DNA of 46,433 bases, taken from positions 1 to 46,433 of IMG/VR virus record IMGVR_UViG_3300047202_000007; one strand, 5' to 3'. Source of the DNA: a virus. Below, piece after piece: positions 23,958 to 46,433 of the stretch. The position numbers and the translations under genes were made by a program. The first letter of the stretch is position 1; the number at the start of each line of letters is the position of its first letter. The notes under the pieces are model-generated. The model made no database searches. It had not been told where the DNA came from and saw only the letters and a list, made by a program, of their open reading frames with translations.

Positions 23958-24100
23958 TGAATGATTTCTGCCGAGAATGTTGTGGTGGTGATAAAGAAGA
24001 AGTTAAGAATTGTGATGACAAGAATTGTCCCTTTTATAGAGACAGACGAACTAATTTAGACTGGCAGAACAAAAGAAAAAATGAACCTAAGTTATCTTAA
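23957..24100 (+). CDS. 47-residue Cys-rich protein
   Basis: ATG overlaps the previous stop by one base and the frame ends 20 bases inside the DNA polymerase gene. The sequence begins MNDFCRECCGG and continues to NCPFYRDRR, with five cysteines that could bind zinc. Similar short CRECC proteins precede replication genes in many phages, but no function is known. Confidence 0.65.
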   Translation: MNDFCRECCGGDKEEVKNCDDKNCPFYRDRRTNLDWQNKRKNEPKLS

Positions 24101-25916
24101 AACTTATCAAGAAGTTCAAGATTGGTTACAGGGGAAAGACCTGTCTGTTGTAGCTTTTGATACGGAAACAGACGGGTTGCGGTTTGGCTCACCAATAGTA
24201 GGTATCTCTCTTTGTAACGGAACAGATGCCTGTTATATAAATTTGTTCAACAATCTTGAATATCATAGAATTTTACTATTGATTTGGAAAGAATTTGACA
24301 TAGGCTTTGATAGTTCAGGTGGTAAGAGCATTTTGATTGGACATAATCTTTCTTATGACCTAAAAGTATTAAAATTCTACAATATCGAACCACATTGTTA
24401 TTTATATGATACTATGGTTGCTGCCCACTTGCTCAATGAAAATGCCAAATGTGGATTAAAGGATTTGATGAAAAGAAAACTCAAGTGGACAGATGTAAAA
24501 GAATGGAAAGAGGTTGCACCTTTGGGGTATGATTCAAAAGAGTTTCAGGAATATGGCATAAAGGATGTTATTGCTACCTGGAAACTCTACGAGTTAACAA
24601 AACCCCTTTTAGCCAAAGGAGGATTCGACAACCTATTCTACAATATAGAAATGCCTTTTCAGAGAGTTATAGTAGATTTGGAGACTAATGGAATAGGTGT
24701 TGACCAAGATTATCTTGAGGATTTGGACGACACTCTGACCGCCGAGAGAGTTATTTTAGAAGAAAAATGTGTCCTATCTCTCGGAATGAAAATGTTAAGA
24801 GAGAAAAATCTCTTTGGGTTTGAAGTCGTTTCTTCTCCTATCAATCTTAACAGTTCAAAACAGTTGCTTGATATTATACAGAACAAACTTAAAATAAAAC
24901 TTCCTTATACTACAAAGAAAGGTAATCCATCAACTAAAAGTGAATGTTTAAAAGTAATTAGAACCAAACATCCGTTCATTGACCTTCTTCTTCAATATCG
25001 TAAAGTAGAAAAACTACACAATACCTTTATAGAACCCCTGTGGGGACAAATTGATTCTGATAGTCGTGTGCGTTCCTCTGTAAATGACGCCATTCCTCGA
25101 ACTGGACGTTTATCATACTCTAATCCAAATAATCAACAACTTCCATCATCAAAGAAAAAAGACATTTATGGAGTTCGTAAAATATACAGGGCCAAAGAAG
25201 GTTATGTATTTGTTCAAGGTGATTGGTCAGGACAGGAATTAAGGGGTTGTGCTCACGTTTCGGGCGACCAGAATATGATTCAAGCCTTCCTTGCTGACAA
25301 AGACCTGCATTTAGCAACAGCAAATGAATGGCTTAAATTGGAGATACCCAATGAACACTTATTCAAAACCCATCCCGCTTATAAAAATGTTGCTGCGAAA
25401 TACGAAAAGGAGAGAGACAGAGGCAAAAACGGAGTTAATTTCCCGATTGTTTACGGAACAACGGCCAAAGGTATCGCACTCAGGCAGGGAATTGATGAAG
25501 AAATGGCTTTGGCAGGAATTGAGGCTTTCTTTACACTATACCCAGACGTTAGAAAAGCAGTAAAACAATGCCGAAAGGATTTATTTGCACACAACTGCGT
25601 TGTTACTATGCTTGGTAGAAAACGCCGGTTTTGGGAAATCAATGATAAAGCAATACGCCAAGCCTTTAATTTTCTTATTCAGGGATTCTTTGCAGATGTT
25701 CTTAGAATTGCAATGGTTAATATAAGACAACTTTTTCTTGACCATCCTGAATGGGATGCTAAATTAGTTTTAACGGTTCACGATAGTATTACGGCAGAAT
25801 GCCCTAAAGAATGTGCCGAAGTTGTATCAAAGGAAATGCAACACGTTATGGAAACAAGTTACAAACTTTCTATTCCGTTACCTGCTGATATGTGTATAAG
25901 TGAGACTCTTAAATGA
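24081..25916 (+). CDS. Family A DNA polymerase with 3'-5' exonuclease
   Basis: A 611-residue replicative polymerase. Proofreading domain: Exo I AFDTETDG (D27, E29), Exo II GHNLSYDLK (88-95), Exo III YGIKD (158-162). Polymerase domain: SNPNNQQLP (347-355), motif A DWSGQELR (381-388), motif B RGKNGVNFPIVYG (447-459), motif C VHDS (566-569). Motif C has Ser in place of the usual Glu of HDE, and motif A has DWSGQE instead of DYSQIE. There is no 5'-3' exonuclease domain. It is the main replication enzyme of the phage. Confidence 0.95.
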   Translation: MNLSYLKTYQEVQDWLQGKDLSVVAFDTETDGLRFGSPIVGISLCNGTDACYINLFNNLEYHRILLLIWKEFDIGFDSSGGKSILIGHNLSYDLKVLKFYNIEPHCYLYDTMVAAHLLNENAKCGLKDLMKRKLKWTDVKEWKEVAPLGYDSKEFQEYGIKDVIATWKLYELTKPLLAKGGFDNLFYNIEMPFQRVIVDLETNGIGVDQDYLEDLDDTLTAERVILEEKCVLSLGMKMLREKNLFGFEVVSSPINLNSSKQLLDIIQNKLKIKLPYTTKKGNPSTKSECLKVIRTKHPFIDLLLQYRKVEKLHNTFIEPLWGQIDSDSRVRSSVNDAIPRTGRLSYSNPNNQQLPSSKKKDIYGVRKIYRAKEGYVFVQGDWSGQELRGCAHVSGDQNMIQAFLADKDLHLATANEWLKLEIPNEHLFKTHPAYKNVAAKYEKERDRGKNGVNFPIVYGTTAKGIALRQGIDEEMALAGIEAFFTLYPDVRKAVKQCRKDLFAHNCVVTMLGRKRRFWEINDKAIRQAFNFLIQGFFADVLRIAMVNIRQLFLDHPEWDAKLVLTVHDSITAECPKECAEVVSKEMQHVMETSYKLSIPLPADMCISETLK

Positions 25917-27293: not shown

Positions 27294-27498
27294 ATGTTGG
27301 TGTGGGTCAGGTAAAAAGTATAAGAACTGTCATTTTCTGACAGATATGAGAGAAGTTTGGGAAAAACAACCTACGCCGCAGGAAGTTGATTATTTAAAGC
27401 GACAGACAACTTACTTTACCAAAAAGTATGAAAGGTTGACTAATGGCACATCAGTTAAAAAAGACACTGGAAAACCTGACGGAACTATACGGGCCTAA
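27271..27498 (+). CDS. SEC-C motif protein
   Basis: A 75-residue protein whose N terminus carries CWCGSGKKYKNCH (residues 9-21), the zinc-binding SEC-C motif also found at the end of SecA. The rest is basic and helical. Its last 56 bases overlap the RecA gene. Phage SEC-C proteins lack a known role; binding to nucleic acid or ribosome-associated partners is possible. Confidence 0.75.
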   Translation: MKIPRNSKCWCGSGKKYKNCHFLTDMREVWEKQPTPQEVDYLKRQTTYFTKKYERLTNGTSVKKDTGKPDGTIRA

Positions 27499-28228
27499 CA
27501 CCGTGTTCAAGTTAGGTGAGGCTCTTAATCTGTGTCTTGACTGGCAATCATCTGGAATCCCTCAAATTGACCTAATAATGGGGGGTGGCTTCCCTAAAGG
27601 TCGCATAGTTGAAATCTTTGGGCCAGAGGGGTCAGGCAAGACTACTTTAGCCCTCTGTGTGGCAGCGAAGGCCCAAGAAACGGATTCTGTGGCATACATT
27701 GATATTGAACACGCAATCAATCCTCAGTGGGCTGCAAAACTTGGAGTCAAAATAAATGACCTATTTTTTGCTCAACCCTCTTATGGAGAGGAAGCTCTTG
27801 ACATAGTGGAGAAACTTATTGAAACTGAACAATTCGGCGTTATCATTGTGGACTCAGTAGCCGCCTTAGTTCCCAAAGTAGAATTAGAGGGTGAAGCAGG
27901 TGAAGCCCACGTTGGGTTACACGCCCGCCTAATGAGTCAGTTTATGCGACGTCTAACAGCAAAGTTAGCTAACTCTAAGACTTGTTTGATATTTATCAAT
28001 CAAATCAGGATGAAGATAGGAACGTATGGAAATCCCGAAACTACCTGTGGCGGATTGGCCCTAAAGTATTATGCCTCTATACGACTTAACTTACGGAAGA
28101 AAAAGAACTTAGAAGAAAAACAAATCCCAATGGCAGTTGTTATCAAATCTGTTTGTATTAAAAATAAGGTGTCTGACCCATTCAGGGAAGCAGAATTTGA
28201 AATCTGGTTTGATGGGAAAGTAAAATGA
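27443..28228 (+). CDS. RecA-like recombinase
   Basis: A 261-residue recombinase core. Walker A GPEGSGKTT (60-68), catalytic Glu in YIDIEHA (E89), Walker B VIIVDS (D137), then a long loop and FINQIRMKIG. It lacks the C-terminal domain of the 350-residue bacterial RecA. It should assemble on single-stranded DNA for recombination-dependent replication or repair. The start lies inside the SEC-C gene. Confidence 0.93.
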   Translation: MAHQLKKTLENLTELYGPNTVFKLGEALNLCLDWQSSGIPQIDLIMGGGFPKGRIVEIFGPEGSGKTTLALCVAAKAQETDSVAYIDIEHAINPQWAAKLGVKINDLFFAQPSYGEEALDIVEKLIETEQFGVIIVDSVAALVPKVELEGEAGEAHVGLHARLMSQFMRRLTAKLANSKTCLIFINQIRMKIGTYGNPETTCGGLALKYYASIRLNLRKKKNLEEKQIPMAVVIKSVCIKNKVSDPFREAEFEIWFDGKVK

Positions 28229-31324: not shown

Positions 31325-31555
31325 ATGAAGATAGGTGATAAAGTTATTTATGTTGGCGATAATTCCCCTTATTTAAAAGGGGAAACTGGTATTGTAATAG
31401 ATTTTTATTCCAGTGAGTATGGTCGTGAAGATTTGCCTTGCTGCCACGTTCAGTTTAATGACCACTTATATCGTGGCGTTTATCTAAAAAATGTAAAATT
31501 GCTTTCTAAGCAGTTAGATTTTAGCTTTACGGAGAACAAAAATGTTAACTCCTAA
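31325..31555 (+). CDS. SH3/KOW-like small protein 1 with C-terminal QLDFSF motif
   Basis: A 76-residue protein starting MKIGDKVIYVG, an SH3/KOW-type opening, with G-x-x-G-I-V-I strand pattern near residues 19-26. QLDFSF lies at 63-68, followed by a longer tail than its relatives. It is the first of ten such paralogues in this arm. The motif resembles the clamp-binding hexapeptide QLxLxL. Function inferred, not shown. Confidence 0.7.
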   Translation: MKIGDKVIYVGDNSPYLKGETGIVIDFYSSEYGREDLPCCHVQFNDHLYRGVYLKNVKLLSKQLDFSFTENKNVNS

Positions 31556-31772
31556 AAATATGTTGTGTATATCCTGCCCTTACTGGCACAGGGCTTTTGG
31601 TTGCCACGCTGTAAACAAGGTTTGCGAATTGCCGTCATTAAAGAATCCACCACGATTAGTTTTGACGGCTGTGGATATAAGTAAACTTCTCGATGATTGC
31701 TGTAAATTAACACCAGTTGAAAATGCAGACAGCTTAAACTTACAACCACTTGTAAATGAATTTGGAGAATAA
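31542..31772 (+). CDS. Cys-rich hypothetical protein
   Basis: A 76-residue protein starting MLTPKNMLCISCPYWHRAFGC, with further cysteines near the middle (CELP, CCKL) that may bind metal. It overlaps the preceding SH3-like gene by 14 bases. Function unknown. Confidence 0.6.
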   Translation: MLTPKNMLCISCPYWHRAFGCHAVNKVCELPSLKNPPRLVLTAVDISKLLDDCCKLTPVENADSLNLQPLVNEFGE

Positions 31773-31774
31773 CG

Positions 31775-31972
31775 ATGTTGACTTGTGCTGAATGTAAGCA
31801 TTGGAGACGGAAGGAAAGTTTAATGGACAATAGAACAAGGACGGATGCACTGTGCAAATGTGCCAAAATAGATAGTTATTACAACTCTGATAAACCACGA
31901 TTAGCAGTTGGTGTGCATAACAATTTATATACTTGTGCTTTGTTTAGCTGTTGTTTAGGAGAAAAACGATGA
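31775..31972 (+). CDS. 65-residue Cys-rich protein
   Basis: Begins MLTCAECKHWRRKES and ends with CALFSCCLGEKR; at least seven cysteines. The CxxC-H-W pattern is common in small zinc proteins of phages. Its stop overlaps the next small membrane peptide. Confidence 0.6.
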   Translation: MLTCAECKHWRRKESLMDNRTRTDALCKCAKIDSYYNSDKPRLAVGVHNNLYTCALFSCCLGEKR

Positions 31973-32040
31973 CACTTAAAATCTGCATATCTGCTTTGAT
32001 ATTTATTGTAACTTCTGTATATTGGCTGAAACGTAGATGA
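31969..32040 (+). CDS. 23-residue membrane peptide
   Basis: ATG overlaps the previous stop and its TGA overlaps the next ATG. Sequence MTLKICISALIFIVTSVYWL and a basic end. One transmembrane helix. Dense overlap on both sides supports translation. Confidence 0.5.
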   Translation: MTLKICISALIFIVTSVYWLKRR

Positions 32041-32255
32041 GATTTATAGCAGGACAGCGTGTTAAATATACAGAAACGGAAAGTCCACGTCTTATAGGGA
32101 AATCAGGAACAGTTTTCTCCTCACAAATAGAAGCTGATAATGTATATGTCGCATTTGATGGTATTCTTTATAGTTTTGTCCACCCTGCTTCGGGGGTTTA
32201 TCCTGAAAATATAGAATTGCTATCAAGACAGTTAGATTTTGCGTTTAAAGAATAG
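32037..32255 (+). CDS. SH3/KOW-like small protein 2 with C-terminal QLDFAF motif
   Basis: A 72-residue relative of the 31325 protein. It opens with AGQRVKYTE and has a glycine-rich turn (LIGKSGTVF); the tail is SRQLDFAFKE, so serine of the motif is alanine. Codons for the motif differ from the other copies while the peptide is kept. A terminator-like hairpin overlaps its stop codon. Confidence 0.7.
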   Translation: MRFIAGQRVKYTETESPRLIGKSGTVFSSQIEADNVYVAFDGILYSFVHPASGVYPENIELLSRQLDFAFKE

Positions 32256-32277
32256 TGTGTAACTATTCAGATTTTTT
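32250..32277 (+). terminator. Intrinsic terminator or attenuator
   Basis: GAATAGT (32250-32256) pairs perfectly with ACTATTC (32262-32268) around 5 bases, followed by AGA and six T (32272-32277). It overlaps the end of the SH3-like gene. Since genes continue on the same strand 18 bases later, it may set their level and not stop all transcription. Confidence 0.6.
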
Positions 32278-32294
32278 AGTTGGAGGTAGCACAA

Positions 32295-32516
32295 ATGGCA
32301 AGTATTAACGTAACAGGTTCAGCGTCCACAAAGAAGCTCAAAAGCTTCAAGCGTGGTCGCGTGTTCGTGAAAGGCAGCAATTCCTATGTGCTGGCAATTC
32401 ACGGCAGTGGTGATTCAATTCACCGGCTGAAAAACGTTGCAAAGGCAGCGATTGTTACCAAAGCCGAACTTGCAACCCTGAATTTCAAGAACAGCCCTGC
32501 AACGATGCTTGACTAA
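32295..32516 (+). CDS. Small basic protein, paralogue of the 38445 protein
   Basis: Starts at the ATG at 32295 after TTGGAGG, giving 73 residues. It begins MASINVTGSASTKKLKSFKR; the end, with TKAELATLNFKNSPA, matches the end of the 38445 protein (TAAELASLNFKKSSPA). The middle SNSYVLAIHGS parallels DNDYVLYVGK there. Both are beta-rich and flanked downstream by hairpins. Well-translated layout; function unknown. Confidence 0.65.
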   Translation: MASINVTGSASTKKLKSFKRGRVFVKGSNSYVLAIHGSGDSIHRLKNVAKAAIVTKAELATLNFKNSPATMLD

Positions 32517-32529
32517 AAACAAACGTTTA

Positions 32530-32550
32530 GGGGGATAACGTAAATCCCCC
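32530..32550 (+). other. GGGGGAT/ATCCCCC stem-loop
   Basis: Seven perfect base pairs around a 7-base loop, directly after the 32295 gene and 10 bases before the next ATG. No T-run. It resembles the hairpin at 30343 and may stabilise the upstream message. Confidence 0.45.
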
Positions 32551-32559
32551 ACTGATATT

Positions 32560-32805
32560 ATGTATAAAATAGGCCAAAAAGTAAAGATAAAGTTTGGTTG
32601 GTTTGGTAATCGGCAAAGAACACCATTCCATTATTACGACGGTATGATAGGGACAATAAAAACCATTGTGGACTGCAATTCTACAACCAAAGAACTTGGC
32701 TGGGATTACCAAGTAGAGATACCTGGTTATACCGAAGGCTGTTATTTCCCTGAGTGTGGTCTTAGTTTAGTAAACCAACAATTAGACTTCTCTTTTACGG
32801 AGTAA
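32560..32805 (+). CDS. SH3/KOW-like small protein 3 with C-terminal QLDFSF motif
   Basis: An 81-residue paralogue with MYKIGQKVKIKFG at the start, a central GMIGTIKTI turn and NQQLDFSFTE at the end. The first 30 bases are identical to those of the 35940 gene, so these two copies diverged recently or exchanged sequence. No good binding site precedes the ATG. Confidence 0.7.
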   Translation: MYKIGQKVKIKFGWFGNRQRTPFHYYDGMIGTIKTIVDCNSTTKELGWDYQVEIPGYTEGCYFPECGLSLVNQQLDFSFTE

Positions 32806-32809
32806 TTGT

Positions 32810-34249
32810 ATGAGAGCAGATGATGTAAGATTGCCTTTGTGTGTATCAGAGGAAATACAGAAAATCTGTGATGATTTGGATATTAAACTTCCCCGCAAAG
32901 CAAACATTACATTTGTAACGGGCGACGATTCATTTGGAGAAAACCGCCAACTTAAATGCTTAGATGCTGCGGGTTTAATAAAAGCCATAAATCACTTTAG
33001 ATATCCTGTTCGCAGAATAGATTCTATATCTGAATTACACGCACTTTATGAGGACGGACAATTAGACCCTCTATTTAAAGCTGATAGTGCAAAAATTGTT
33101 AAAGGTGATGCATATAATTTGCTGTGTAAGGGGTTTCAGCTTGTAAAAGCTGGACGACTAATAAAGAAGCTATGCCCTGATTTGGACGATGAAATTGTAG
33201 AAAAGTTTTCGTCAAGCATCATAAAAAGTACAACAATATCTATCGTTGACACAGTAACTAAAGTCTATAGGACAGACCCCCCACACAGTTGTATGAATGG
33301 GCGTTCAATGGAGTTTTATGAGAAAAATGGTGTAAAAGTTGTAATTGCCCATTATCAGAAAAAACTGGTTGCCAGAGCTTTGTTGTGGCCAGCAATTAGC
33401 TTTGCTCGTTATAATAAAAAGTTGCCTTTGATGGACAGAGTTTTTGATGCCGATGGACGATTTGCACACTTGATAGACTTGTTTGCTCAGTCAAATAGTA
33501 TTGTAAGAAGAAGAGGACAACAACACTTTAGGTTTAATGATGAAGATTTCGATGCCCGAATAGAATTTCCACTTGATGATTATAAAGTGGAATTTGTTCC
33601 ATTTTTAGACACTATGAATTATGCTATCAAAGAAGATAAAATTGTAACCCTCTACAATTATCACAAAGAAGGGGCTATAGGGTTGTCGTCTGGTGAAAAC
33701 CCTTTTAACCTGCCGATGGTGTTTTCTAAGTATTTAAACAAGGAGTTGCCAAAAAAGCACGCCATAAGATTAGAATATATTGATGATTGGGGAATACCAG
33801 AGGATTGCTACAATTTAGACGCTGGAAACTACTTAAAGAAGGATTGTTTAGCGTGTGCAACGTGCAACAATTGGTTCTATAAACAAGATTCACATCTACA
33901 CACATCTGTTGTAAGAAAGCCAATTTGTGGTGGGTGTGGTAAAGAAATACAGGCAGGGACTTACAAAGGATTGTATGCCCCCGAAAGTGATATTTTAATA
34001 GTCCACAAAAAGCGAGTTTATAAGAATGATGAAGTGTTGGTTTGTAATAGAGATGAACCTTTGCTTATAACTGATGACGGAGTTTACTTAGACACTTTAA
34101 GTCCTCGCAAATCACGATGGGTTTGTGTAAATGAAGAACAACACGAAGAAAGTGGTTCACTGAAAGCTTCTATAATTTCTGGAAACTGGATAGAAATTGA
34201 AGAAGAACCAGCTTATTACAGAGATACATACACAGGAAAACTATTCTAA
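32810..34249 (+). CDS. Unrecognised 479-residue protein with zinc ribbon
   Basis: A large soluble protein with no family I can name. Visible features: PPHSCMNG (about 155-162), a central block with RALLWPAISF and SNSIVRRRGQQHF, then a four-cysteine region CLACATCNNW and ICGGCGKEI (about 345-380). It ends next to the peptidase gene, and the ATG of that gene overlaps its stop. The zinc ribbon may bind nucleic acid or protein. The two genes may act together. Confidence 0.65.
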   Translation: MRADDVRLPLCVSEEIQKICDDLDIKLPRKANITFVTGDDSFGENRQLKCLDAAGLIKAINHFRYPVRRIDSISELHALYEDGQLDPLFKADSAKIVKGDAYNLLCKGFQLVKAGRLIKKLCPDLDDEIVEKFSSSIIKSTTISIVDTVTKVYRTDPPHSCMNGRSMEFYEKNGVKVVIAHYQKKLVARALLWPAISFARYNKKLPLMDRVFDADGRFAHLIDLFAQSNSIVRRRGQQHFRFNDEDFDARIEFPLDDYKVEFVPFLDTMNYAIKEDKIVTLYNYHKEGAIGLSSGENPFNLPMVFSKYLNKELPKKHAIRLEYIDDWGIPEDCYNLDAGNYLKKDCLACATCNNWFYKQDSHLHTSVVRKPICGGCGKEIQAGTYKGLYAPESDILIVHKKRVYKNDEVLVCNRDEPLLITDDGVYLDTLSPRKSRWVCVNEEQHEESGSLKASIISGNWIEIEEEPAYYRDTYTGKLF

Positions 34250-35523
34250 TGAAAAAACGCCTAATAAAAGTGTTGTCAATACCGTCCACCTCAAAGAATA
34301 CACATCTTATGACTAATTACATTCTTGAGCGAATGAACGGCAAGCCTTTAGAATGTATGGTGGATGAATCTGGCAATATCTTTATAACCAAAGGTGTATC
34401 AGAAACTTATCCGTGTATAACAGCACATTTAGACACTGTTCACGGGTGGGGAAATATTGTAGTTGTTGAAAAAGATGGTGCTTTAAGTAGTCCAGCAGGA
34501 ATAGGCGGAGATGACAAATGCGGAATTTTTATCTGCCTTGAATTACTGGATAAACTGCCCATTCTCAAGGTTGCATTTTTTCAAGGGGAAGAAGTTGGTT
34601 GCACCGGAAGCAGAGCGTGTGATTTAGAATGGTTCAAGAATTGTAGGTATATTATAGGAATAGACCGGCGAGGCAACTCTGATTTCATATCCTCATTTTG
34701 GGGTGAAAAAACTGCCAGTAAGCATTTTAAGAAAACAATTGCTCAAGTTTTACAACAGTATGAATACTCTGCTTCAATTGGTTTAATAACAGATTCTCTT
34801 AAATTAGCCGAAAGAAAAGTGGGAATTTCCTGCTGTAACATCTCTTGCGGATACTATAATCCTCACTGTAACGATGAAAGTGTAGTTATAAAAGATGTAT
34901 TTAAAGCGTTGAACCTAACTGCTGACTTAATAGCTGTTTTAGGGGATGAAGTTTATTCCCACGCCTATACAACTAAGACTTACACGACCTATACTAATAA
35001 CAAAGATTGGAGTAAATGGGGACAATGTGCCAAGTGTAAAAGCTGGAAAGATAACACAGTTTGGTTAGTAGGTGTAGGATTGGTATGCCCTGAATGTTTG
35101 CGGAATCCTCTTAATCAGAAGAAGTTACCATTGTCGTCAACTGAACCAGCAAACAAGTGTGATATTTGTCCTTTTAAAGACAAACTTTATGGCACTTGCC
35201 TTGCAACTGATAAAGATAAATGCCTGAAAGAAGATGAGGAGAAAAATCCCTGTATAAACTGTAATCACATAAGAGGCTTTTCAGAAGCGTGTAAGAATTG
35301 CACCGAAGAAATTACTTGTGATGTAAGTGGTTGTCCAAAGTGTATAGGATTTAATGTTTGCAATAAACCACAAGCAAGAGCAACCAGAATAAAGCAGATG
35401 CACCACGAAAAAGATGGTGAAATAAATTGTGATGAGTGTAGGGCTGAACAATTCTTTCAACCTGAATGGTGTGAAGATTGCCGCCTTGACCCTAAAAAGC
35501 CAACACCGGAGTTTATGGAATGA
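34249..35523 (+). CDS. M20-type metallopeptidase with Cys-rich C-terminal domain
   Basis: A 424-residue protein. Residues 1-240 look like an M20/M28-type di-zinc aminopeptidase: AHLDTV (H60, D62), GIGGDDKCG (D88/D89), GEEVGCTGS (catalytic and ligand E114, E115), GIDRRG (D139) and NPHCNDES carrying a further histidine. The remaining 180 residues hold many cysteine pairs (CAKCKSW, CPECL, CDICPF, CINC, CKNC), several zinc ribbons. Phages seldom encode such peptidases. It may cut a host or phage peptide; the Cys-rich part may choose the target. Substrate unknown. Confidence 0.75.
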   Translation: MKKRLIKVLSIPSTSKNTHLMTNYILERMNGKPLECMVDESGNIFITKGVSETYPCITAHLDTVHGWGNIVVVEKDGALSSPAGIGGDDKCGIFICLELLDKLPILKVAFFQGEEVGCTGSRACDLEWFKNCRYIIGIDRRGNSDFISSFWGEKTASKHFKKTIAQVLQQYEYSASIGLITDSLKLAERKVGISCCNISCGYYNPHCNDESVVIKDVFKALNLTADLIAVLGDEVYSHAYTTKTYTTYTNNKDWSKWGQCAKCKSWKDNTVWLVGVGLVCPECLRNPLNQKKLPLSSTEPANKCDICPFKDKLYGTCLATDKDKCLKEDEEKNPCINCNHIRGFSEACKNCTEEITCDVSGCPKCIGFNVCNKPQARATRIKQMHHEKDGEINCDECRAEQFFQPEWCEDCRLDPKKPTPEFME

Positions 35524-35726
35524 AAATAGGAGATAAAGTAAAATATGTTGGGAACGATGAGGGTCGAGGGTTTAATTCAGAATTGGTGGGATTAGTAGGA
35601 AAAATTGTGGATATTGAAGGCGACCAAGCCCACGTCGATACTCTTACACTTTTAGGAAAAATGCCATTTTTATACAACCTTAAAATAATAAACAATCAAT
35701 TGGACTTTAGCTTCACAAATGCTTAA
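35520..35726 (+). CDS. SH3/KOW-like small protein 4 with C-terminal QLDFSF motif
   Basis: A 68-residue paralogue: MKIGDKVKYVG, then LVGLVGKIVDIEGD, and NNQLDFSFTNA as the last residues. Its ATG overlaps the peptidase stop. First of three family members in tandem (35520, 35719, 35940), each overlapping the next. Confidence 0.72.
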   Translation: MKIGDKVKYVGNDEGRGFNSELVGLVGKIVDIEGDQAHVDTLTLLGKMPFLYNLKIINNQLDFSFTNA

Positions 35727-35952
35727 AGTTGGTGATAAAATCCGCATCATACGAAATGCCAGTGATTACAAAGGTATGTATGGCAAAGTAGGCCAAATAA
35801 AAGAAATTCGGGGAATGAATTTTATATTAGACATTTTAAATCCTTGGGGAAATTATTGTATATTAAGTTCAATAACACAAGATAGAAATGATTGGTGGGA
35901 AAAAGTTACCAACCAACAAATGGACTTTAGTTTTACAGAATGTATAAAATAG
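35719..35952 (+). CDS. SH3/KOW-like small protein 5 with C-terminal QMDFSF motif
   Basis: A 77-residue paralogue: MLKVGDKIRIIRN, a GKVGQIKEI turn, and NQQMDFSFTE before the tail CIK. Second of the tandem trio; overlaps its neighbours by 8 and 13 bases. Confidence 0.72.
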   Translation: MLKVGDKIRIIRNASDYKGMYGKVGQIKEIRGMNFILDILNPWGNYCILSSITQDRNDWWEKVTNQQMDFSFTECIK

Positions 35953-36173
35953 GCCAAAAAGTAAAGATACTTTCCGATGCGTGGTTTGACGGTAAAATAA
36001 ATGTTAATTCAATAGACACAGGAAAAATAGGAGTAATCACACACATTGCAGATAGAATTTATTCAGGAGGCAACTTTAAATATACTATAATAGTTGGAAC
36101 AAATCGCAACGCCTTTAGAGATTGTGATATTCAGGCAATACAGCAACAGTTAGATTTTTCATTTAAGGAGTAA
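35940..36173 (+). CDS. SH3/KOW-like small protein 6 with C-terminal QLDFSF motif
   Basis: A 77-residue paralogue: MYKIGQKVKILSD, GKIGVITHI, and QQQLDFSFKE at the very end. Its first 30 bases equal those of the 32560 gene, while the rest differs, a sign of recent exchange or duplication. Confidence 0.72.
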   Translation: MYKIGQKVKILSDAWFDGKINVNSIDTGKIGVITHIADRIYSGGNFKYTIIVGTNRNAFRDCDIQAIQQQLDFSFKE

Positions 36174-36174
36174 A

Positions 36175-36318
36175 ATGAATAACGAAAGATATTATGAATT
36201 GTTGATGAAATTGTATAACGAATCCGATAGTAAACAAAATTATTTGTTTAGCAGATTGATTCTACTTATTGCAGAAAAAGCTTTAGACGACAGCATTACG
36301 GAAGGAAGTATCGAATGA
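36175..36318 (+). CDS. 47-residue helical protein
   Basis: ATG after TAAGGAG. Sequence MNNERYYELLMKLYNESDSK, then a hydrophobic helix FSRLILLIAEKALDD. Its stop overlaps the nuclease start (ATGA). Function unknown; perhaps a small partner of the nuclease. Confidence 0.6.
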   Translation: MNNERYYELLMKLYNESDSKQNYLFSRLILLIAEKALDDSITEGSIE

Positions 36319-37160
36319 AACTAACTAACCGATATGGCTATCCAGAAGCGTTTGTTAAGATGGCTGAACGTCATTTATTCCAGCCAAAAGAAGGTAGAAT
36401 AGGCGTAACTGCTCTTATAAAATCACCACAGATTAGACGATTAACGATTGACAAATGGGACAATCTTGTGGTTGATGTCGATGACCTATTCACCGGAATT
36501 TTGGGAAGTTGTTTTCACAAAGGATTAGAATTAAATGTTGGTGCAGAACATAAAGCCGAACAAAAATGGGAACACAACGTAGATGGTATAGTAGTGGTAG
36601 GCAAAGCCGATTTGTCTAATGGCGGAATTGAGGACTACAAACTGCTTTCCGCCTGGTCGTGGGTATTCGGTGAAGATAAGGACTGGATTGAACAGCTTAA
36701 TTCTCTTAATTGGCTGAGAATAAAGTCAGGCTTTGACCCTGCTAAATTCTTAAAGGTTCACGCATTTGTAAAAGATTGGTCAGCTTATCAGGCAAAGCGG
36801 GATAAAGATTACCCACAGACGAGATACATAAATTATGATGTGCCTATTTGGGCCTTTGATGAAACAGAACACTTTATAAGACAAAGAGTTTCTTTACATC
36901 AGAATCTCAAATATACTTGCTCTGATGCAGACAAATGGATTAAACTTGAGAAGTGGGCTGTAAAACATCAGGGAAAAGATAAGGCAGATAGATTGCTGGA
37001 TACAGCTATCGAAGCTGAGAAATACATAATGCAACGTAATTGGGTAAATGATTATGCCACTGGAAAGATTACCATTACACAAAGAAAATCTCAACCTAAA
37101 AATTGCTTAGATTATTGCCTTTGCCGTTCAGTTTGCCCCTTCGCTTTAGGACTAAAATAG
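36315..37160 (+). CDS. PD-(D/E)XK nuclease, RecB/Cas4-like, with C-terminal cysteine cluster
   Basis: A 281-residue protein. FHKGLE (H68), GKADL with D99, and IEDYK (E106 to K109) are in the order of the RecB-type nuclease core, followed by EQLNSLNWL. Four cysteines close to the end (264, 268, 270, 274) recall the iron-sulphur clusters of Cas4 and AddB exonucleases. Likely 5'-3' or 3'-5' end-processing of DNA for recombination with the RecA, NinB and NinG homologues. Not a CRISPR gene here: no array is present. Confidence 0.8.
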   Translation: MKLTNRYGYPEAFVKMAERHLFQPKEGRIGVTALIKSPQIRRLTIDKWDNLVVDVDDLFTGILGSCFHKGLELNVGAEHKAEQKWEHNVDGIVVVGKADLSNGGIEDYKLLSAWSWVFGEDKDWIEQLNSLNWLRIKSGFDPAKFLKVHAFVKDWSAYQAKRDKDYPQTRYINYDVPIWAFDETEHFIRQRVSLHQNLKYTCSDADKWIKLEKWAVKHQGKDKADRLLDTAIEAEKYIMQRNWVNDYATGKITITQRKSQPKNCLDYCLCRSVCPFALGLK

Positions 37161-37168
37161 GAGTTTAG

Positions 37169-37393
37169 ATGCTTAAAGCAGGTGATAGAGTTTTGATTAG
37201 AGAAGGACACCTTGCTGGTCGAAAGTGGCCTTACAAAAATGGGAAAAAAGCTACAATTAAGTCTATCGAAGATTATGGAGAGTATGATTGTTCTATAAAA
37301 GTTGATGGTGATTATCTTATATACCGTTGGAATTTGATTGACCTTATACCATTACAACCTCAAATGGACTTTAGTTTTTCGGGGGTTCTATGA
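37169..37393 (+). CDS. SH3/KOW-like small protein 7 with C-terminal QMDFSF motif
   Basis: A 74-residue paralogue: MLKAGDRVLIREG, then WPYKNGKKATIKSI, and PQMDFSFSGVL at the end. Resembles the 40900 member in LAGRKWPYKNG versus RGGGKWPDRNG. Overlaps the next Cys-rich gene. Confidence 0.7.
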   Translation: MLKAGDRVLIREGHLAGRKWPYKNGKKATIKSIEDYGEYDCSIKVDGDYLIYRWNLIDLIPLQPQMDFSFSGVL

Positions 37394-37530
37394 TAATTAA
37401 AGAAGTAAACTGCTATGAATGTGGTGAAGTAATCATCATAACTAAACAAGAAACTGCTGATTTAATAGAGTTGGGCGTAGATATTCTTTGTCCATTGTGT
37501 GAGGAAATATATGGTGAAGGTCGGGGATAA
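37390..37530 (+). CDS. 46-residue zinc-ribbon protein
   Basis: ATG overlaps the previous stop. Cysteines C8 and C11 (CYEC) and C34, C37 (CPLC) are placed as in a zinc ribbon. Overlaps the start of the next SH3-like gene by 20 bases. Function unknown. Confidence 0.6.
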   Translation: MIIKEVNCYECGEVIIITKQETADLIELGVDILCPLCEEIYGEGRG

Positions 37531-37774
37531 AATAAAGATAACAACTGATGTAGAAGTTTTGGAAGGTTATTCTATAAATCCTGTAGATGCACGCTCTATG
37601 GCAGGAAAAATATGCAAGGTGAGGGCATTATTTAACCGCTCTCCTGATTCTATAGCTTATCCAGATTTCATTCAGACTGACATTGGTTGTGGCAATGGTA
37701 ATTTTTGGTGGTTACACAATGAACGTGGTTACACAAAGCTAAATTCTCAAATGGATTTCAGTTTCAATGCTTAA
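37511..37774 (+). CDS. SH3/KOW-like small protein 8 with C-terminal QMDFSF motif
   Basis: Starts at the ATG at 37511 after GAGG, giving 87 residues: MVKVGDKIKITTD, a central MAGKICKVRAL, and NSQMDFSFNA as the last ten residues. Paralogue with the largest insert between the glycine turn and the end motif. Confidence 0.7.
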   Translation: MVKVGDKIKITTDVEVLEGYSINPVDARSMAGKICKVRALFNRSPDSIAYPDFIQTDIGCGNGNFWWLHNERGYTKLNSQMDFSFNA

Positions 37775-38168
37775 AAATCAATATAAATTTAGCGGAATAT
37801 ACAAAGATGGCAAAGCTATTCCTGATAAACCTGCCGAAGTAGTTGCCTTTTTCAAATCTCAATTGGGTCGTTTTGAAGCAACCTTTGAGAAAGAATCAGA
37901 GGATATTGTTCAAAGGCAAAGGGGTTATTTCTATGGCGTGGTTGTGCCTACCATAGCAAAAGTAACTGGTTACACAGAAGAAGAAGTTGTAGGCGTTACC
38001 AAAAAGCGACACTTGACAGCAAATAAGGGACTGAAAACCGAGTATGTTAGGTCTGAGACTACTCTAACAAAAGAAGAATTTGCTAAATTTATTGACTTAG
38101 TAATTAAGGACGCAGCTAACTGTGGAATCATAATTCCTGAGCCTTCATATAGGAAGCCTGATGTTTAA
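37767..38168 (+). CDS. NinB-like recombination protein
   Basis: A 133-residue protein. RQRGYFYGVVVPTIAKVTGY (about 51-70) and EYVRSETTLTKEEFAKFID near the end match the phage NinB-like family, single-strand DNA-binding recombination accessory proteins (lambda Orf type). The final ...IIIPEPS is also usual. It lies among SH3-like genes and near the nuclease; it probably aids loading of recombinase. Confidence 0.7.
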   Translation: MLKNQYKFSGIYKDGKAIPDKPAEVVAFFKSQLGRFEATFEKESEDIVQRQRGYFYGVVVPTIAKVTGYTEEEVVGVTKKRHLTANKGLKTEYVRSETTLTKEEFAKFIDLVIKDAANCGIIIPEPSYRKPDV

Positions 38169-38400
38169 GATTGGTGATAAAATAGTTATACTTAACTGCC
38201 ACTTTTCGGGTGGTAGCCAGCAACCAACTCCGATTGGCCATTTGGCAATTATTGACGATAAAGTAATTGATAGTGATAAATTAGAATGTGGATGGGATTG
38301 GGTAGTAACTGATGCTGGCGGCGGAACGTGGTATCTTGCCAGCAATGAAATGCGTTTATTAAACTCACAAATGGATTTTAGTTTCACTCCGGCGAAATGA
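38161..38400 (+). CDS. SH3/KOW-like small protein 9 with C-terminal QMDFSF motif
   Basis: A 79-residue paralogue: MFKIGDKIVILNC at the start, a central IGHLAIIDDKV, and NSQMDFSFTPAK at the end. Overlaps the NinB-like gene by 8 bases. Confidence 0.7.
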   Translation: MFKIGDKIVILNCHFSGGSQQPTPIGHLAIIDDKVIDSDKLECGWDWVVTDAGGGTWYLASNEMRLLNSQMDFSFTPAK

Positions 38401-38444
38401 AAATGTCAGCGTCGGAAAGTAAGGTATAGAAAGGAGACTTACAA

Positions 38445-38705
38445 ATGAGTAACGTAACAATTACAGTTACAAGGGCAACACCAGTGGTTAAAACAACTTC
38501 AAGAGGAACAATCCTCACCACAGGAGATAATGATTATGTCCTGTATGTTGGCAAGGATGGAAACGTGAATAAGGCCGCATTGGTCAATGTTAGGACTGGC
38601 GAGGCCATTCACACACTAAAAATAGTTGCTTCGGCTGATAGAGTTACTGCTGCTGAGCTTGCTTCACTGAATTTCAAAAAGAGTAGCCCCGCTGTTGAGT
38701 ATTAA
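38445..38705 (+). CDS. Small protein, paralogue of the 32295 protein
   Basis: An 86-residue beta-rich protein: MSNVTITVTRATPVVKTTSR, then DNDYVLYVGKDGN, GEAIHTLKIV and TAAELASLNFKKSSPAVEY. The centre and end align with the 32295 protein. Strong binding site (AAAGGAG). Two hairpins follow. Function unknown; the layout suggests good expression. Confidence 0.65.
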   Translation: MSNVTITVTRATPVVKTTSRGTILTTGDNDYVLYVGKDGNVNKAALVNVRTGEAIHTLKIVASADRVTAAELASLNFKKSSPAVEY

Positions 38706-38723
38706 CCTTTAGGTAGCAAGGTT
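38704..38723 (+). other. Stem-loop after the 38445 gene
   Basis: AACCTT (38704-38709) pairs with AAGGTT (38718-38723) around 8 bases. No T-run follows. It is followed 9 bases later by the third GGCA-GGA-TGCC hairpin. Confidence 0.35.
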
Positions 38724-38732
38724 GCGACGAAT

Positions 38733-38746
38733 GGGCAGGGATGCCC
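38733..38746 (+). other. GGGCA-GGGA-TGCCC hairpin, copy 3
   Basis: GGGCA and TGCCC pair around GGGA, about 20 bases before the ATG at 38766. Similar to the hairpins at 28816 and 29083, with the same CA(R)GGATG core in the loop. Confidence 0.4.
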
Positions 38747-38765
38747 CTTGAGAAAGGAGATTAAA

Positions 38766-38990
38766 ATGAAGAGCAAATATGTTGTAAAAAACTTTACAGG
38801 AGCTTTGTTCAAAAATGAGAAAAAGACTACTGAAAAACAACCGGACTTTCAGGGAAATGTATCAATCAACAATGTAACATATCGTCTATCGGCGTGGAAA
38901 AAGACAGGACAGAAGGGAACTTTTTTATCACTGGCAGTTTCAGAGTTTAAACCAGCCGAAAAAGCAGGTGCAGGAGACCTCGGATTTTAA
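38766..38990 (+). CDS. Small phage protein of the xGSLFKNxKK type
   Basis: Starts at the ATG at 38766 after AAAGGAG, 74 residues. FTGALFKNEKKTTEKQPDFQG and YRLSAWKKTGQKGTFLSLAV match a small beta-barrel-like family common near phage replication genes (DUF736-like in my memory). A role in single-strand DNA binding is possible but unproven. Confidence 0.65.
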   Translation: MKSKYVVKNFTGALFKNEKKTTEKQPDFQGNVSINNVTYRLSAWKKTGQKGTFLSLAVSEFKPAEKAGAGDLGF

Positions 38991-39000
38991 GGGTTACAAT

Positions 39001-39165
39001 ATGAAAGTATGGCTTGTTCTTTACTATGACCAAGACTGGTATCGCTGTGTTGAAGGAGTTTATGATTCTTACCTAATGGCATTAACAGTAAAAAATTCCC
39101 TTGCCCCAACCGATGAATGTCGTGAACCTTTTGAAATTGAGTGTCACAATGTCCAACAAATGTGA
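39001..39165 (+). CDS. 54-residue hypothetical protein
   Basis: From the ATG at 39001. Begins MKVWLVLYYDQDWYRCVEGV and resembles short beta-strand proteins with aromatic residues. Overlaps the DnaT-like gene by 17 bases. Function unknown. Confidence 0.55.
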   Translation: MKVWLVLYYDQDWYRCVEGVYDSYLMALTVKNSLAPTDECREPFEIECHNVQQM

Positions 39166-39436
39166 TAAATGCCCCTATAAAGTAATGGCTGCTTTTGTCC
39201 GACCAACTATAGATGAGCTTCGTGCTTATGCCAAAGAGATTGGCTTTCAACCATTTGATGCGGAACATTTCTATTGGTATCACGAACAAACAGGTTGGGT
39301 AGATAAAGGCGGTCGGCCATACGTCAACTGGAAAGGAATTGTGCAGGTATGGTTCAGGGGAGCTATGCAACGAGGCAATGTTGCGGAAGCTGGTAAGTCG
39401 TTTAAAGACAGATACTTGGAGAATGAAACAACTTAA
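39149..39436 (+). CDS. DnaT/replication-initiator C-terminal-type protein
   Basis: Starts at the ATG at 39149, 95 residues. A CDKCPY pair opens it. The rest, with TIDELRAYAKEIGF, FYWYHEQTGWVDKG and VNWKGIVQVWFRG, is the module found at the end of phage replication initiators and DnaT, which helps load the replicative helicase. It lies close upstream of the DnaB-type helicase gene, in line with that role. Confidence 0.7.
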   Translation: MSNKCDKCPYKVMAAFVRPTIDELRAYAKEIGFQPFDAEHFYWYHEQTGWVDKGGRPYVNWKGIVQVWFRGAMQRGNVAEAGKSFKDRYLENETT

Positions 39437-39890
39437 CTTGACACAAGGTCAGTTTGCTTTGGTGGATGATAACTCCTTCGATTGGTTAAATCAATGGAAG
39501 TGGTATGCTGGCTGGAACAAATGCACACAATCTTTCTATGCTCAACGAGGCATTAGAAGAAATGGAAAAACTCTAATTATTAGAATGGCCCGTGTAATAA
39601 TGGGGCTGCAACCAAGTAATAAATATGAAGTTGACCATAGAAATCATAATACCCTTGATAATCAGAGGCACAACTTAAGGGCGGTTACACATCGTGGAAA
39701 TCAATGCAATCGACGAAATACCAAAGGCTATTGTTGGATTTCGGCAAGAAGTTCTTATCTTGTAAGGATTCAATCAAACAAAAGAAAGATTCACGTTGGA
39801 TATTATAAAACAAAAGAAGAAGCTCAAAATGCCTACCAAAAGGCTAAATCAATTTATCATCAGATAGAGCAGGTTGGATGCAGAGATTAA
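39423..39890 (+). CDS. HNH endonuclease with AP2-type DNA-binding domain
   Basis: From the ATG at 39423, 155 residues. The N terminus LNLTQGQFALVDDNSFDWL, HNH core EVDHRNHNTLDNQRHNLR, and C-terminal AP2-like GYYKTKEEAQNAYQKA are typical of free-standing HNH-AP2 homing nucleases. It is wedged between the DnaT-like and helicase genes with overlaps on both sides, so it probably invaded the replication operon. Confidence 0.88.
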   Translation: MKQLNLTQGQFALVDDNSFDWLNQWKWYAGWNKCTQSFYAQRGIRRNGKTLIIRMARVIMGLQPSNKYEVDHRNHNTLDNQRHNLRAVTHRGNQCNRRNTKGYCWISARSSYLVRIQSNKRKIHVGYYKTKEEAQNAYQKAKSIYHQIEQVGCRD

Positions 39891-40711
39891 AAAACAATCT
39901 TGCTGATATTAAAATAGCTCAAGGCGTAGGAGTTTCTACTGGCTTTCCACAGCTTGACGAAGTAACTAATGGCTTTCAGAAAGGCGAGTTAACTCTTATA
40001 GCTGGCCGCCCCTCGATGGGAAAGACAGCCATTATGATTGACCTTGCTATGACTGCTGCCGAACACCACAACACAGGAATCTTCTCTTTAGAAATGGGCA
40101 GGGACTCGTTAGTAACACGGATGATTGCCAACAAACAGAATGTAACTTATAAGTCTTTAATCAGGGGTGAGGTAACTCTGAATGATGATACTAAGAATTA
40201 TCTGGAATCACTTAATTTATATATTGATGACCGTCCTGGCATTACTTCTGCTGATATTATACAAACTGTGCAAGAGGCAAGCCCAAAATTGGACATCGTG
40301 TTCATCGACTATTTACAGTTGGTGCGTCCACCTATTGCTAAAAGACAGAGATATGAAGAAGTTGACAAGATTACCGAGCATATCCGCAATATGGCAAAGA
40401 TTCTCAATGTAGCAGTTGTAATCACTTGTCAACTCAATAGAGCTACCGACCAACGTGAAAAGCACGAACCAAGATTATCCGACCTCCGTGAAAGTGGGGG
40501 AATTGAACAAGTCTGTGATAAAATTCTATTGTTATATCGTCCATCATATTACAGTATTTATGAAACAAATCAAAAAACTGACGATGATTCAGAAGCCTGG
40601 ATTATAGTTGCTAAGCAGAGAAATGGTGAAACTGGTAGAATCCCTATTGTATGGATTGGGGAATCAATGGCTTTTAAAGCAGTCAATTTTAAGTTAGAGG
40701 AGCAATTTTAA
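39878..40711 (+). CDS. DnaB-type replicative helicase (ATPase domain)
   Basis: A 277-residue SF4 helicase. Walker A GRPSMGKT (43-50), EMGRDSL, Walker B IVFIDYLQLVRP, and LSDLRESGGIEQ with the arginine-finger region, then QRNGETGRIP. The N-terminal domain of bacterial DnaB is absent, so only the motor is encoded. It should unwind the fork with the Toprim primase at 41142 and the polymerase. Confidence 0.93.
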   Translation: MQRLKNNLADIKIAQGVGVSTGFPQLDEVTNGFQKGELTLIAGRPSMGKTAIMIDLAMTAAEHHNTGIFSLEMGRDSLVTRMIANKQNVTYKSLIRGEVTLNDDTKNYLESLNLYIDDRPGITSADIIQTVQEASPKLDIVFIDYLQLVRPPIAKRQRYEEVDKITEHIRNMAKILNVAVVITCQLNRATDQREKHEPRLSDLRESGGIEQVCDKILLLYRPSYYSIYETNQKTDDDSEAWIIVAKQRNGETGRIPIVWIGESMAFKAVNFKLEEQF

Positions 40712-40884
40712 TGCGATATAAAATAAAACACAAAGATAGGGTAACGACTTCGGTTTCAATCACTAAGTCTGGGGTAGTTAAAAATGTAGATAGAAGTTAT
40801 AAACCCCCGCGTTTCAGAGTAGTTTTTGACGATGGAACTTGGAATTGGTATGATGAATATGAGTTGTCAAAGGCAAGAAAATAA
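40711..40884 (+). CDS. 57-residue SH3-like protein without end motif
   Basis: ATG overlaps the helicase stop, after AGAGGAG. Sequence begins MRYKIKHKDRVTTSVSITK and has RFRVVFDDGTWNWYDEYEL, resembling a Tudor/SH3 strand pattern. It lacks QxDFSF, so it is not counted as one of the ten. Confidence 0.6.
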   Translation: MRYKIKHKDRVTTSVSITKSGVVKNVDRSYKPPRFRVVFDDGTWNWYDEYELSKARK

Positions 40885-40899
40885 CTTGGAGGAACAGTT

Positions 40900-41139
40900 T
40901 TGAAAGTCGGCGACAAAGTAGAAGTAGTTGATGGAAGATTACGCGGTGGCGGAAAGTGGCCTGACAGAAATGGACAGGTCGGAATAATTTATGATGCGGA
41001 TTTTGAACACACAAAGTTAGTTGGCTATAAATATATAGTTAGTTTTGCTGAGGAACAGAAGGGCTCTAACCTTGCTGCATTTGATGAATCTGAAATACGG
41101 CCACTAAACCCACAAATGGATTTTGCTTTTACGGAGTAA
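40900..41139 (+). CDS. SH3/KOW-like small protein 10 with C-terminal QMDFAF motif
   Basis: The start is TTG at 40900, 7 bases after TTGGAGG. A 79-residue paralogue: KVGDKVEVVDGRLRGGGKWP, NGQVGIIYD, and NPQMDFAFTE at the very end. It lies between helicase and primase genes, which links the family to the replisome. Confidence 0.72.
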   Translation: MKVGDKVEVVDGRLRGGGKWPDRNGQVGIIYDADFEHTKLVGYKYIVSFAEEQKGSNLAAFDESEIRPLNPQMDFAFTE

Positions 41140-41141
41140 CT

Positions 41142-42035
41142 ATGATTCCATATCCCTATCAATCTTTGAAATTAGCAAGAGAAGATTCACAACATTGGTG
41201 GTTTCATTGTGTTTTTCATCGGGGAGATAATGAACCCTCTATGGTTGTCAATAAGACTGAACCCTATAAATTATTTTTTAGGTGTTGGGCGTGTGGTGAA
41301 AATGGAAATGCTAAGTCTTTTGCTGTCAAATACTTAGGACACGACCCTAAACTTATAGATTCACAGATAGAACCTTGTTCAGATGCAATTACTATCTTGA
41401 AAGAAAGATATAAAGTGAATTGGGAAACTAAAAGAGGTTGCCCACTTGAACACATTCCTGATGAAGAACAACAACTTGCTTTCAGAGTAGGGATTTCAGT
41501 TGAGACAATCAGAAAATTTGGAATCGGTTGGAAAGATTATAAATTTCTAATTCCTATGTATGACGAACAGGGAATCTGTGGAATAGCTGTAAGGTCTTAT
41601 GAGTTTGATAATAAAAAAGGATGGATTTGTAAGAAACGCTGTATCAAAGGAAGTAAGCACGGATGGTTTTTTCCTAAAAGTGATTACTCGGCAGACAAAC
41701 CATTCTTTATAGCAGAGGGATGGTCTGATACTGCTGTGCTGATAGAAATGGGATTTCAGGCAATGGGAAGATTTAATGCGGTACATACTGAATGGAACGC
41801 AATGTGTTCCGATAATCCTAATGTATATATAATCTCGGACACAGACGAATGTGGAATAAAAGGCAGCAAGAAATTGCAACAGTTAATTGGCGGGAAAATT
41901 ATATATCCTCCTGAATATACGCCCAAATGTGGATTTGGCACAGGGCCAACAAGATGTCATTACAAAGATATTCGTGAATTTTTCTTGGCTGTTGGGCCAG
42001 AAAGGTGTAAACAATGGCTCGAAAAGCAACTGTAA
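41142..42035 (+). CDS. Toprim DNA primase
   Basis: A 297-residue protein. A zinc site at the N terminus (C23, H26, C48, C51) resembles the DnaG-type CHC2 finger. The Toprim part has the invariant Glu in IAEGWSD (E192) and the acidic pair in ISDTDECG (D233, D235). It is shorter than bacterial DnaG and has no helicase domain, so it should work with the separate DnaB-type helicase. Confidence 0.88.
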   Translation: MIPYPYQSLKLAREDSQHWWFHCVFHRGDNEPSMVVNKTEPYKLFFRCWACGENGNAKSFAVKYLGHDPKLIDSQIEPCSDAITILKERYKVNWETKRGCPLEHIPDEEQQLAFRVGISVETIRKFGIGWKDYKFLIPMYDEQGICGIAVRSYEFDNKKGWICKKRCIKGSKHGWFFPKSDYSADKPFFIAEGWSDTAVLIEMGFQAMGRFNAVHTEWNAMCSDNPNVYIISDTDECGIKGSKKLQQLIGGKIIYPPEYTPKCGFGTGPTRCHYKDIREFFLAVGPERCKQWLEKQL

Positions 42036-45542: not shown

Positions 45543-45942
45543 TATAAGAGGAAAGTGGGGAAACACTGCTACTAAAGAGCAAATGGCAGTTAATTGTAAG
45601 CGAGCTAACCTGTTTGCTAAGGGGTTAAGAAAAGAACTGCCTGACCTTTATGTTCATTTACCCGCTGACTTTGAGGAATGGGTAGGAATGGCGTGGGCCT
45701 GTGAGATAATTTCAGAGGAACAGATTCTAAGGGTTGATTGCGAAATTATTTCTACCTGCAATGGGATGATTGTCTTTGCTCCTGATGACCACATAAGTAA
45801 AGGTATGCAAATAGAAATTGACTGGTGTAAGTCCCATAACATTCCCTATCTTTTGCTAAATGCTCAAACATTGGCTATCAAGTATCAGTTAGACATCAGT
45901 GAACTGGATATTATAAAAGACTGGTTGGAGAGTTTAAAATGA
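45520..45942 (+). CDS. Nucleoside 2-deoxyribosyltransferase-like protein
   Basis: From the ATG at 45520, 140 residues. KIYISHSIRGKWG opens the Rossmann-like fold and CNGMIVFAPDDHISKGMQIE carries the S-G-x-x-x-E signature of the deoxyribosyltransferase family. It should exchange bases on deoxynucleosides, or act on another nucleoside. Overlaps both neighbours. Confidence 0.7.
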   Translation: MKIYISHSIRGKWGNTATKEQMAVNCKRANLFAKGLRKELPDLYVHLPADFEEWVGMAWACEIISEEQILRVDCEIISTCNGMIVFAPDDHISKGMQIEIDWCKSHNIPYLLLNAQTLAIKYQLDISELDIIKDWLESLK

Positions 45943-46433
45943 AAGACCTAATGGTAGATATTGAAACTCTTGACACTTCATCTACTGCTGTAATAACACA
46001 AATAGGAGCTTGTTTTTTCGATAGATATACAGGAGAAGTTGGAGATAAATTTTTAGAGAATATATCTATTCAGTCGTGCGTGGATATGGGGTTAACTATA
46101 AACGGTAACACTATTGAATGGTGGTTTAAACAACCCAATCGAAGTTGGCTTGAAAATCCCAAAGGTCTTGAAACCGTTTTGAATAATTTCAGACAATTTA
46201 GTTTTAAGAAGTATAACTTTGTTTGGTCGCACTCCTCTTTTGATATACCTATAATTGCAAATGCTTATTATGTAATGGGACAATCATTTCCCTTCAATTA
46301 TCGGTCAGTAAGAGACATAAGAACTCTTGTTGATTTAGCTGGTTTAACAGGCCAAATAAAAGCAAAAACAACGGGGGAAAAAGATGAAAAGACTCACAAT
46401 GGACTTGACGATTGTATATATCAAGTTGAGTAT
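45939..46433 (+). CDS. 3'-5' exonuclease (DnaQ/RNase T-like), runs across the circular junction
   Basis: 165 codons lie in the window and ten more follow from base 26 to a TAA at 56-58 after joining the ends, about 175 residues in all. MVDIETLDTSS gives the Exo I D-x-E, WSHSSFDIPI the Exo II Asp, and KTHNGLDDC the Exo III His/Asp, the DEDDh layout. It may trim DNA or RNA 3' ends, alongside the RNA ligase. ATG overlaps the preceding stop. Confidence 0.88.
   Translation, partial: MKDLMVDIETLDTSSTAVITQIGACFFDRYTGEVGDKFLENISIQSCVDMGLTINGNTIEWWFKQPNRSWLENPKGLETVLNNFRQFSFKKYNFVWSHSSFDIPIIANAYYVMGQSFPFNYRSVRDIRTLVDLAGLTGQIKAKTTGEKDEKTHNGLDDCIYQVEY
46409..46433. repeat. Right copy of 25-bp terminal direct repeat (circular overlap)
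   Basis: Identical to positions 1-25. It lies in the coding sequence of the exonuclease, whose frame continues correctly from base 26 of the window. Confidence 0.93.

Follow-up and report, generated by a model that had tools for sequence, protein, structure and literature searches.

Why would a phage keep a series of divergent small proteins that all end in nearly the same hexapeptide? The question is raised by an uncultivated bacterial virus, IMG/VR record IMGVR_UViG_3300047202_000007, which we analysed over its whole length of 46,433 nucleotides (hereafter the window). Ten small neighbouring genes on its + strand encode products of 68-87 amino acids (aa) that carry the tail Q(L/M)DF(S/A)F. 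We suggest, with a probability of about one half, that these proteins are a phage-specific expansion of SH3-like domains whose appended tails dock on the sliding clamp of the host, DnaN. An initial annotation had listed the ten genes, and all were recovered at the same starts; refinements concern a GTG codon at 37499 in the frame of the gene at 37511, and the TTG start at 40900. The opening strand (I/V/A)G(D/Q)(K/R)(V/I) described there is likewise present in ten of ten proteins, which are as follows:

31325-31555, + strand: paralogue 1, 76 aa, tail QLDFSF followed by TENKNVNS; AlphaFold barrel mostly with a predicted local distance difference test score (pLDDT) of about 90, tail coil about 65
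32037-32255, + strand: paralogue 2, 72 aa, tail QLDFAF followed by KE; its C-terminal part is nearest to that of paralogue 1
32560-32805, + strand: paralogue 3, 81 aa, tail QLDFSF followed by TE
35520-35726, + strand: paralogue 4, 68 aa, tail QLDFSF followed by TNA
35719-35952, + strand: paralogue 5, 77 aa, tail QMDFSF followed by TECIK
35940-36173, + strand: paralogue 6, 77 aa, tail QLDFSF followed by KE
37169-37393, + strand: paralogue 7, 74 aa, tail QMDFSF followed by SGVL
37511-37774, + strand: paralogue 8, 87 aa (91 aa if the alternative GTG start is used), tail QMDFSF followed by NA
38161-38400, + strand: paralogue 9, 79 aa, tail QMDFSF followed by TPAK; AlphaFold model available
40900-41139, + strand: paralogue 10, 79 aa, TTG start, tail QMDFAF followed by TE

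A six-frame scan of the window with the pattern Q[LMI]D[FLYW]x[FLYW] returned the ten Q(L/M)DF(S/A)F copies, all on the + strand, and one further, unrelated match, which is another peptide (QLDWFY) whose short frame runs opposite to a long gene. In 100 first-order Markov randomisations of the window, which keep its dinucleotide make-up, the motif never occurred (mean 0, maximum 0), and, given their amino-acid composition, the ten proteins together should contain about 7e-5 copies by chance. The placement near the C terminus holds throughout, with the stop codon 2-8 residues past the motif in all ten. Within the tail Q, D, F and F are invariant (10/10), position 2 is L or M and position 5 is S or A. 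Mean pairwise identity of the aligned proteins amounts to 85% in the tail, 55% over the first ten columns and 18% in the middle.

The codons of the tail vary at many synonymous positions while the peptide is kept, just as the initial annotation had observed. The proportions of nonsynonymous and synonymous differences (pN and pS) are 0.13 and 1.18 in the tail, compared with 0.32 and 0.73 in the N-terminal strand; synonymous sites are saturated, so that the ratio is indicative only. Selection at the level of protein is thus supported by few nonsynonymous tail differences beside saturated synonymous ones, and a signal acting at the level of DNA or RNA is rejected because the tail codons vary. The codons ACGGAGTAA (Thr-Glu-stop), which follow the motif at the ends of 40900-41139 and 32560-32805, include the GGAG that serves the following gene as its ribosome-binding site. 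This site may partly explain the repeated TE ending, and for that reason we left TE out of the motif.

What kind of protein carries the tail? AlphaFold was given the ten-row alignment and two models were made. The model of 31325 is a five-strand barrel (mean pLDDT 84) with its last strand at residues 57-59 and the motif at 63-68; that of 38161 is a less certain barrel (mean pLDDT 77) with the last strand at 64-66 and the motif at 70-75. In both, the motif is predicted as a coil past the last barrel strand with pLDDT of about 65-70, so the peptide is not part of the predicted fold. Foldseek searches with the 31325 model recovered SH3-like folds, among them those of PsaE, PetP and the B. subtilis SPbeta protein YorP, with template modelling (TM) scores of about 0.5-0.6 in the PDB, as well as numerous small phage proteins (57-90 aa, TMt up to 0.79) that are uncharacterised. 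When the family profile was compared with PDB sequences, its weak alignment with PsaE and YorP ended by profile position 69, the motif lying at about 71-76; weak PHROG alignments of the paralogues likewise end short of the motif. Of the SH3/KOW-like assignment made earlier, the SH3 part is thus supported by models, Foldseek and profile, and the KOW part is only weakly so: the best Pfam score for the KOW domain PF00467 was 15.8 bits (E-value 0.013), below the curated cut-off of 22.3, and the sequences give no indication of a KOW role in binding nucleic acid. The models support the view that the ten proteins are divergent SH3-like barrels, and most likely the tail is an addition to a complete domain of this kind. 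One adjacent gene offers a weak internal control:

40711-40884, + strand: possible SH3-like neighbour without the tail, 57 aa, weak PHROG matches (2827, E-value 0.003)

Its product is strongly basic (isoelectric point 10), whereas those of the ten paralogues are acidic to mildly basic (4.7-8.8).

Taken together, a peptide kept at the protein level, placed outside the predicted fold and carried by divergent heads fits a docking tail, as had been proposed. The hexameric clamp-binding motif of bacteria is Q-phi-x-(L/M)-x-(F/L), with QLxLxF among the strongest variants, a slight preference for Asp at position 3 and frequent location in a C-terminal tail (PMC11139829). The claimed fit to this motif stands for positions 1, 2, 3, 5 and 6 and fails at position 4. 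Gln occupies position 1 in 10/10 proteins, position 2 is a large aliphatic residue (Leu in five, Met in the other five), position 6 is Phe in 10/10, and the motif, a coil in both models, is presumably accessible.

Several observations weigh against docking on DnaN. Position 4 is Phe in 10/10 tails instead of Leu or Met; the known ligands reviewed have only Leu or Met there, and Phe at this position weakened an E. coli-derived peptide (PMC11139829). The pLDDT of the tail is too high to exclude that it becomes ordered on oligomerisation. None of the other proteins of the phage, its polymerase and primase included, has a Q(L/M)DF(S/A)F-type motif near the C terminus. Finally, the patterns used found no tailed relative in IMG/VR or in the GTDB-representative genomes, and the case is that of one genome. 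The departure at position 4 can be put into context by MutS, the clamp motif of which is QLSFF in B. subtilis (PMC8034640). In a sample of 37 MutS genes, mostly from Bacillota, a simple pattern recognised the motif in 23, and seven of these 23 have Phe at position 4 (for example QLSFF, QLTFF, QLEFF, QLAFF and QASFDL). Judged from these sequences, the natural variation of clamp motifs in some hosts extends to Phe at position 4. As an observation on MutS itself, clamp motifs of Bacillota often have Phe at position 4, a residue that consensus definitions based on E. coli omit (our loci L062-L069 and L081-L109).

The search for relatives, suggested by the initial annotation as a motif profile search in related phages, was run by profile and pattern on IMG/VR and by pattern on 84,980 GTDB-representative genomes, and it recovered no tailed relatives. 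Scans of IMG/VR gave 58 matches with 0 confirmed, 102 matches with 0 confirmed and, in a further scan, one confirmed locus (L061). This locus was rejected as a tailed relative: one KxGDKV-like segment matches the query, and the locus lacks the Q(L/M)DF(S/A)F peptide. The phage protein encoded at its positions 2-2479 is 825 aa or longer; it has SH3-like segments of KxGDKV type, several in tandem, and after them a lysine-rich tail, and it lies upstream of structural-looking genes. DNA patterns of tail plus stop returned 4 viral and 20 genome stretches that were chance-like and for the most part in frames that are short or wrong, except for one gene of ribonucleotide reductase (RNR) beta considered below. 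A second tail pattern returned 21 stretches with 0 small tailed proteins of the paralogue kind, and a tblastn search of the ten joined proteins against phages gave nothing convincing, the best match (E-value 0.01) covering paralogue 2 only.

Does the phage have a clamp of its own to which the tails could bind? The ends of the window, 1-25 and 46409-46433, are an identical direct terminal repeat of 25 nucleotides, and the reading frame of a DnaQ-like exonuclease at 45939 closes once the ends are joined, with the next gene directly after. On these two grounds we regard the window as, in effect, a whole circular phage genome, 46,408 base pairs in length. It encodes a family A DNA polymerase, RecA, an exonuclease, a NinB-like mediator, a single-strand DNA binding protein (SSB), a DnaB-type helicase, a DnaG-like primase and an RNA ligase, and the tailed genes are interspersed with those of RecA, exonuclease, NinB, SSB, DnaB and DnaG:

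24081-25916, + strand: phage family A (PolA-type) DNA polymerase, 611 aa, without a clamp-binding-like peptide
27443-28228, + strand: RecA-like recombinase
36315-37160, + strand: exonuclease, PHROG 2139
37767-38168, + strand: NinB/Orf-like recombination mediator
38748-38990, + strand: SSB, C-terminal end GDLGF
39878-40711, + strand: DnaB-type helicase
41142-42035, + strand: DnaG-like primase

Many genes have GGAG sequences of Shine-Dalgarno-like type. A search of the genome with PF00712, PF02768 and PF02916 detected no clamp of DnaN or gp45 type; a very divergent phage clamp is possible despite this domain search. The host is unassigned, since searches with PolA, TerL, RecA, exonuclease, DnaB and a 479-aa protein gave distant homologues only or none. 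The sole near-identical DNA is a second, short contig (L008) with an identical PolA, which ends short of the tail block. Two other features of the same region may be mentioned in their own right. A gene of an M28/M42-type peptidase (PHROG 4191) with a Cys-rich C-terminal part lies amid the replication genes at 34249-35523 (+ strand). Another small paralogous pair, at 32280-32516 and 38445-38705 (both + strand), shares the C-terminal sequence AELA(T/S)LNFK(N/K)S and has no PHROG match.

We propose that the ligand cleft of host DnaN is the most likely partner of the tails. In the proposed docking, Gln would occupy the Gln pocket, Leu or Met a shallow subsite, and Phe4 together with Phe6 the hydrophobic pocket. 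Since no phage clamp could be recognised, several different SH3 heads might in this way sit on host clamps during infection. There are two presumed consequences. The tails would occupy the site to which host polymerases and repair factors bind, so that host clients are crowded off the clamp; and they would place unlike heads, with different activities, at replicating DNA. Clamp binding, and which of competition or recruitment dominates, are what we infer here. A more specific version, which we put forward only tentatively, is that the genes encode ten adaptors with one constant tail for the host clamp and divergent SH3 heads, each of which brings different cargo or evicts different clients, in place of a phage clamp.

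Other explanations of the tail have to be weighed against docking on DnaN. It is possible, though on balance doubtful, that the peptide docks on some other shared hub of phage or host, such as SSB, DnaB, a polymerase or RNA polymerase, the heads acting as adaptors or inhibitors. A constant tail on variable heads would be expected equally well in this case, the tailed genes are interleaved with phage replication and recombination genes, and Phe at position 4 is atypical of clamp ligands of the E. coli type. Nevertheless, invariant Gln, L/M at position 2, Asp at 3, a small residue at 5 and Phe at 6 make up the pattern of a clamp ligand, and we identified no hub that has a matching pocket. Less likely, the tail is an oligomerisation strand, the L/M-F-F face of which pairs with a barrel contributed by a neighbouring paralogue to form strand-swapped hetero-oligomers. 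SH3-like barrels of the Sm/Hfq family do form rings; moreover, hydrophobic residues alternate in the tail and its pLDDT of about 65-70 is intermediate, not very low. On the other hand, the part of the barrel on which the strand would have to pack is unconserved at its surface (18% identity), strand pairing has no need of invariant Gln and Asp, and small SH3-like domains without tails are common in phages.

Two further ideas fare worse still. Paralogues 3 and 6 (32560 and 35940) have 5' ends identical over 30 nucleotides, and there are further partial DNA matches among the copies; the shared ends could then be residual or recombination-homogenised sequence left by recent duplication, and the tail would have no function under selection. 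We regard this as highly improbable, as recent copying or conversion fails to explain a peptide that is kept while its synonymous codons are saturated. The other idea is that the tail imitates the C-terminal tail with which class I RNR beta docks, and so competes for the alpha subunit. It was raised by a phage RNR beta from IMG/VR (L005, 831-1889, - strand) ending in QMDFSFLE. This protein, however, came from the motif search itself, and a few chance matches are expected at such a length of pattern. The motif is missing from two related RNR beta tails, which end in NALSGFEL and VSKFSEESL, and Gln is not characteristic of such tails, so mimicry of RNR is hardly credible.

If the tails do bind DnaN, this phage would exert multiplexed control over the host sliding clamp, with a single short linear motif placed on many heads, for which we found no precedent in the literature searched. 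The tails would also be natural peptides of the clamp cleft with an unusual Phe at position 4, of relevance to antibacterials directed at the clamp, and they would offer an easy way to examine how host clamps are dealt with by a phage that has a PolA-type polymerase but no clamp gene. Should the partner be another protein, the same anatomy would still point to an unknown hub in phage replication.

Among known systems, YorP (PDB 2heq) and PsaE have the SH3-like barrel in common with the paralogues, but the match stops before QLDFSF and their functions are unrelated or unknown. Pol IV, Hda, Pol III epsilon and MutS likewise present a short Gln-led motif in an exposed segment (PMC11139829, PMC8034640); in contrast to them, the tail described here combines Phe at position 4 with hexameric spacing, which is unusual, and does so on phage SH3-like proteins. 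SocB, a toxin of Caulobacter, is also a small protein, and it is reported to bind DnaN by a clamp-binding motif and to block elongation (PMC9690074); it is a single bacterial toxin of a toxin-antitoxin system and not a set of ten genes. Twort gp168 is phage-encoded and acts on the host clamp, yet it binds the DNA channel (PMC11139829) and not the ligand cleft that we propose for the tails. The closest analogue is phage T4, in which the polymerase gp43, the sigma-like gp55 and the co-activator gp33 have highly similar, interchangeable C-terminal tails that bind the clamp (PMC2988020). As here, different phage proteins end in similar short hydrophobic and acidic peptides, and those of T4 dock on one clamp. 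Whereas the tails of the present phage sit on ten SH3 paralogues and no clamp gene was found beside them, T4 has its own trimeric clamp, gp45, and its tailed proteins are unrelated to each other.

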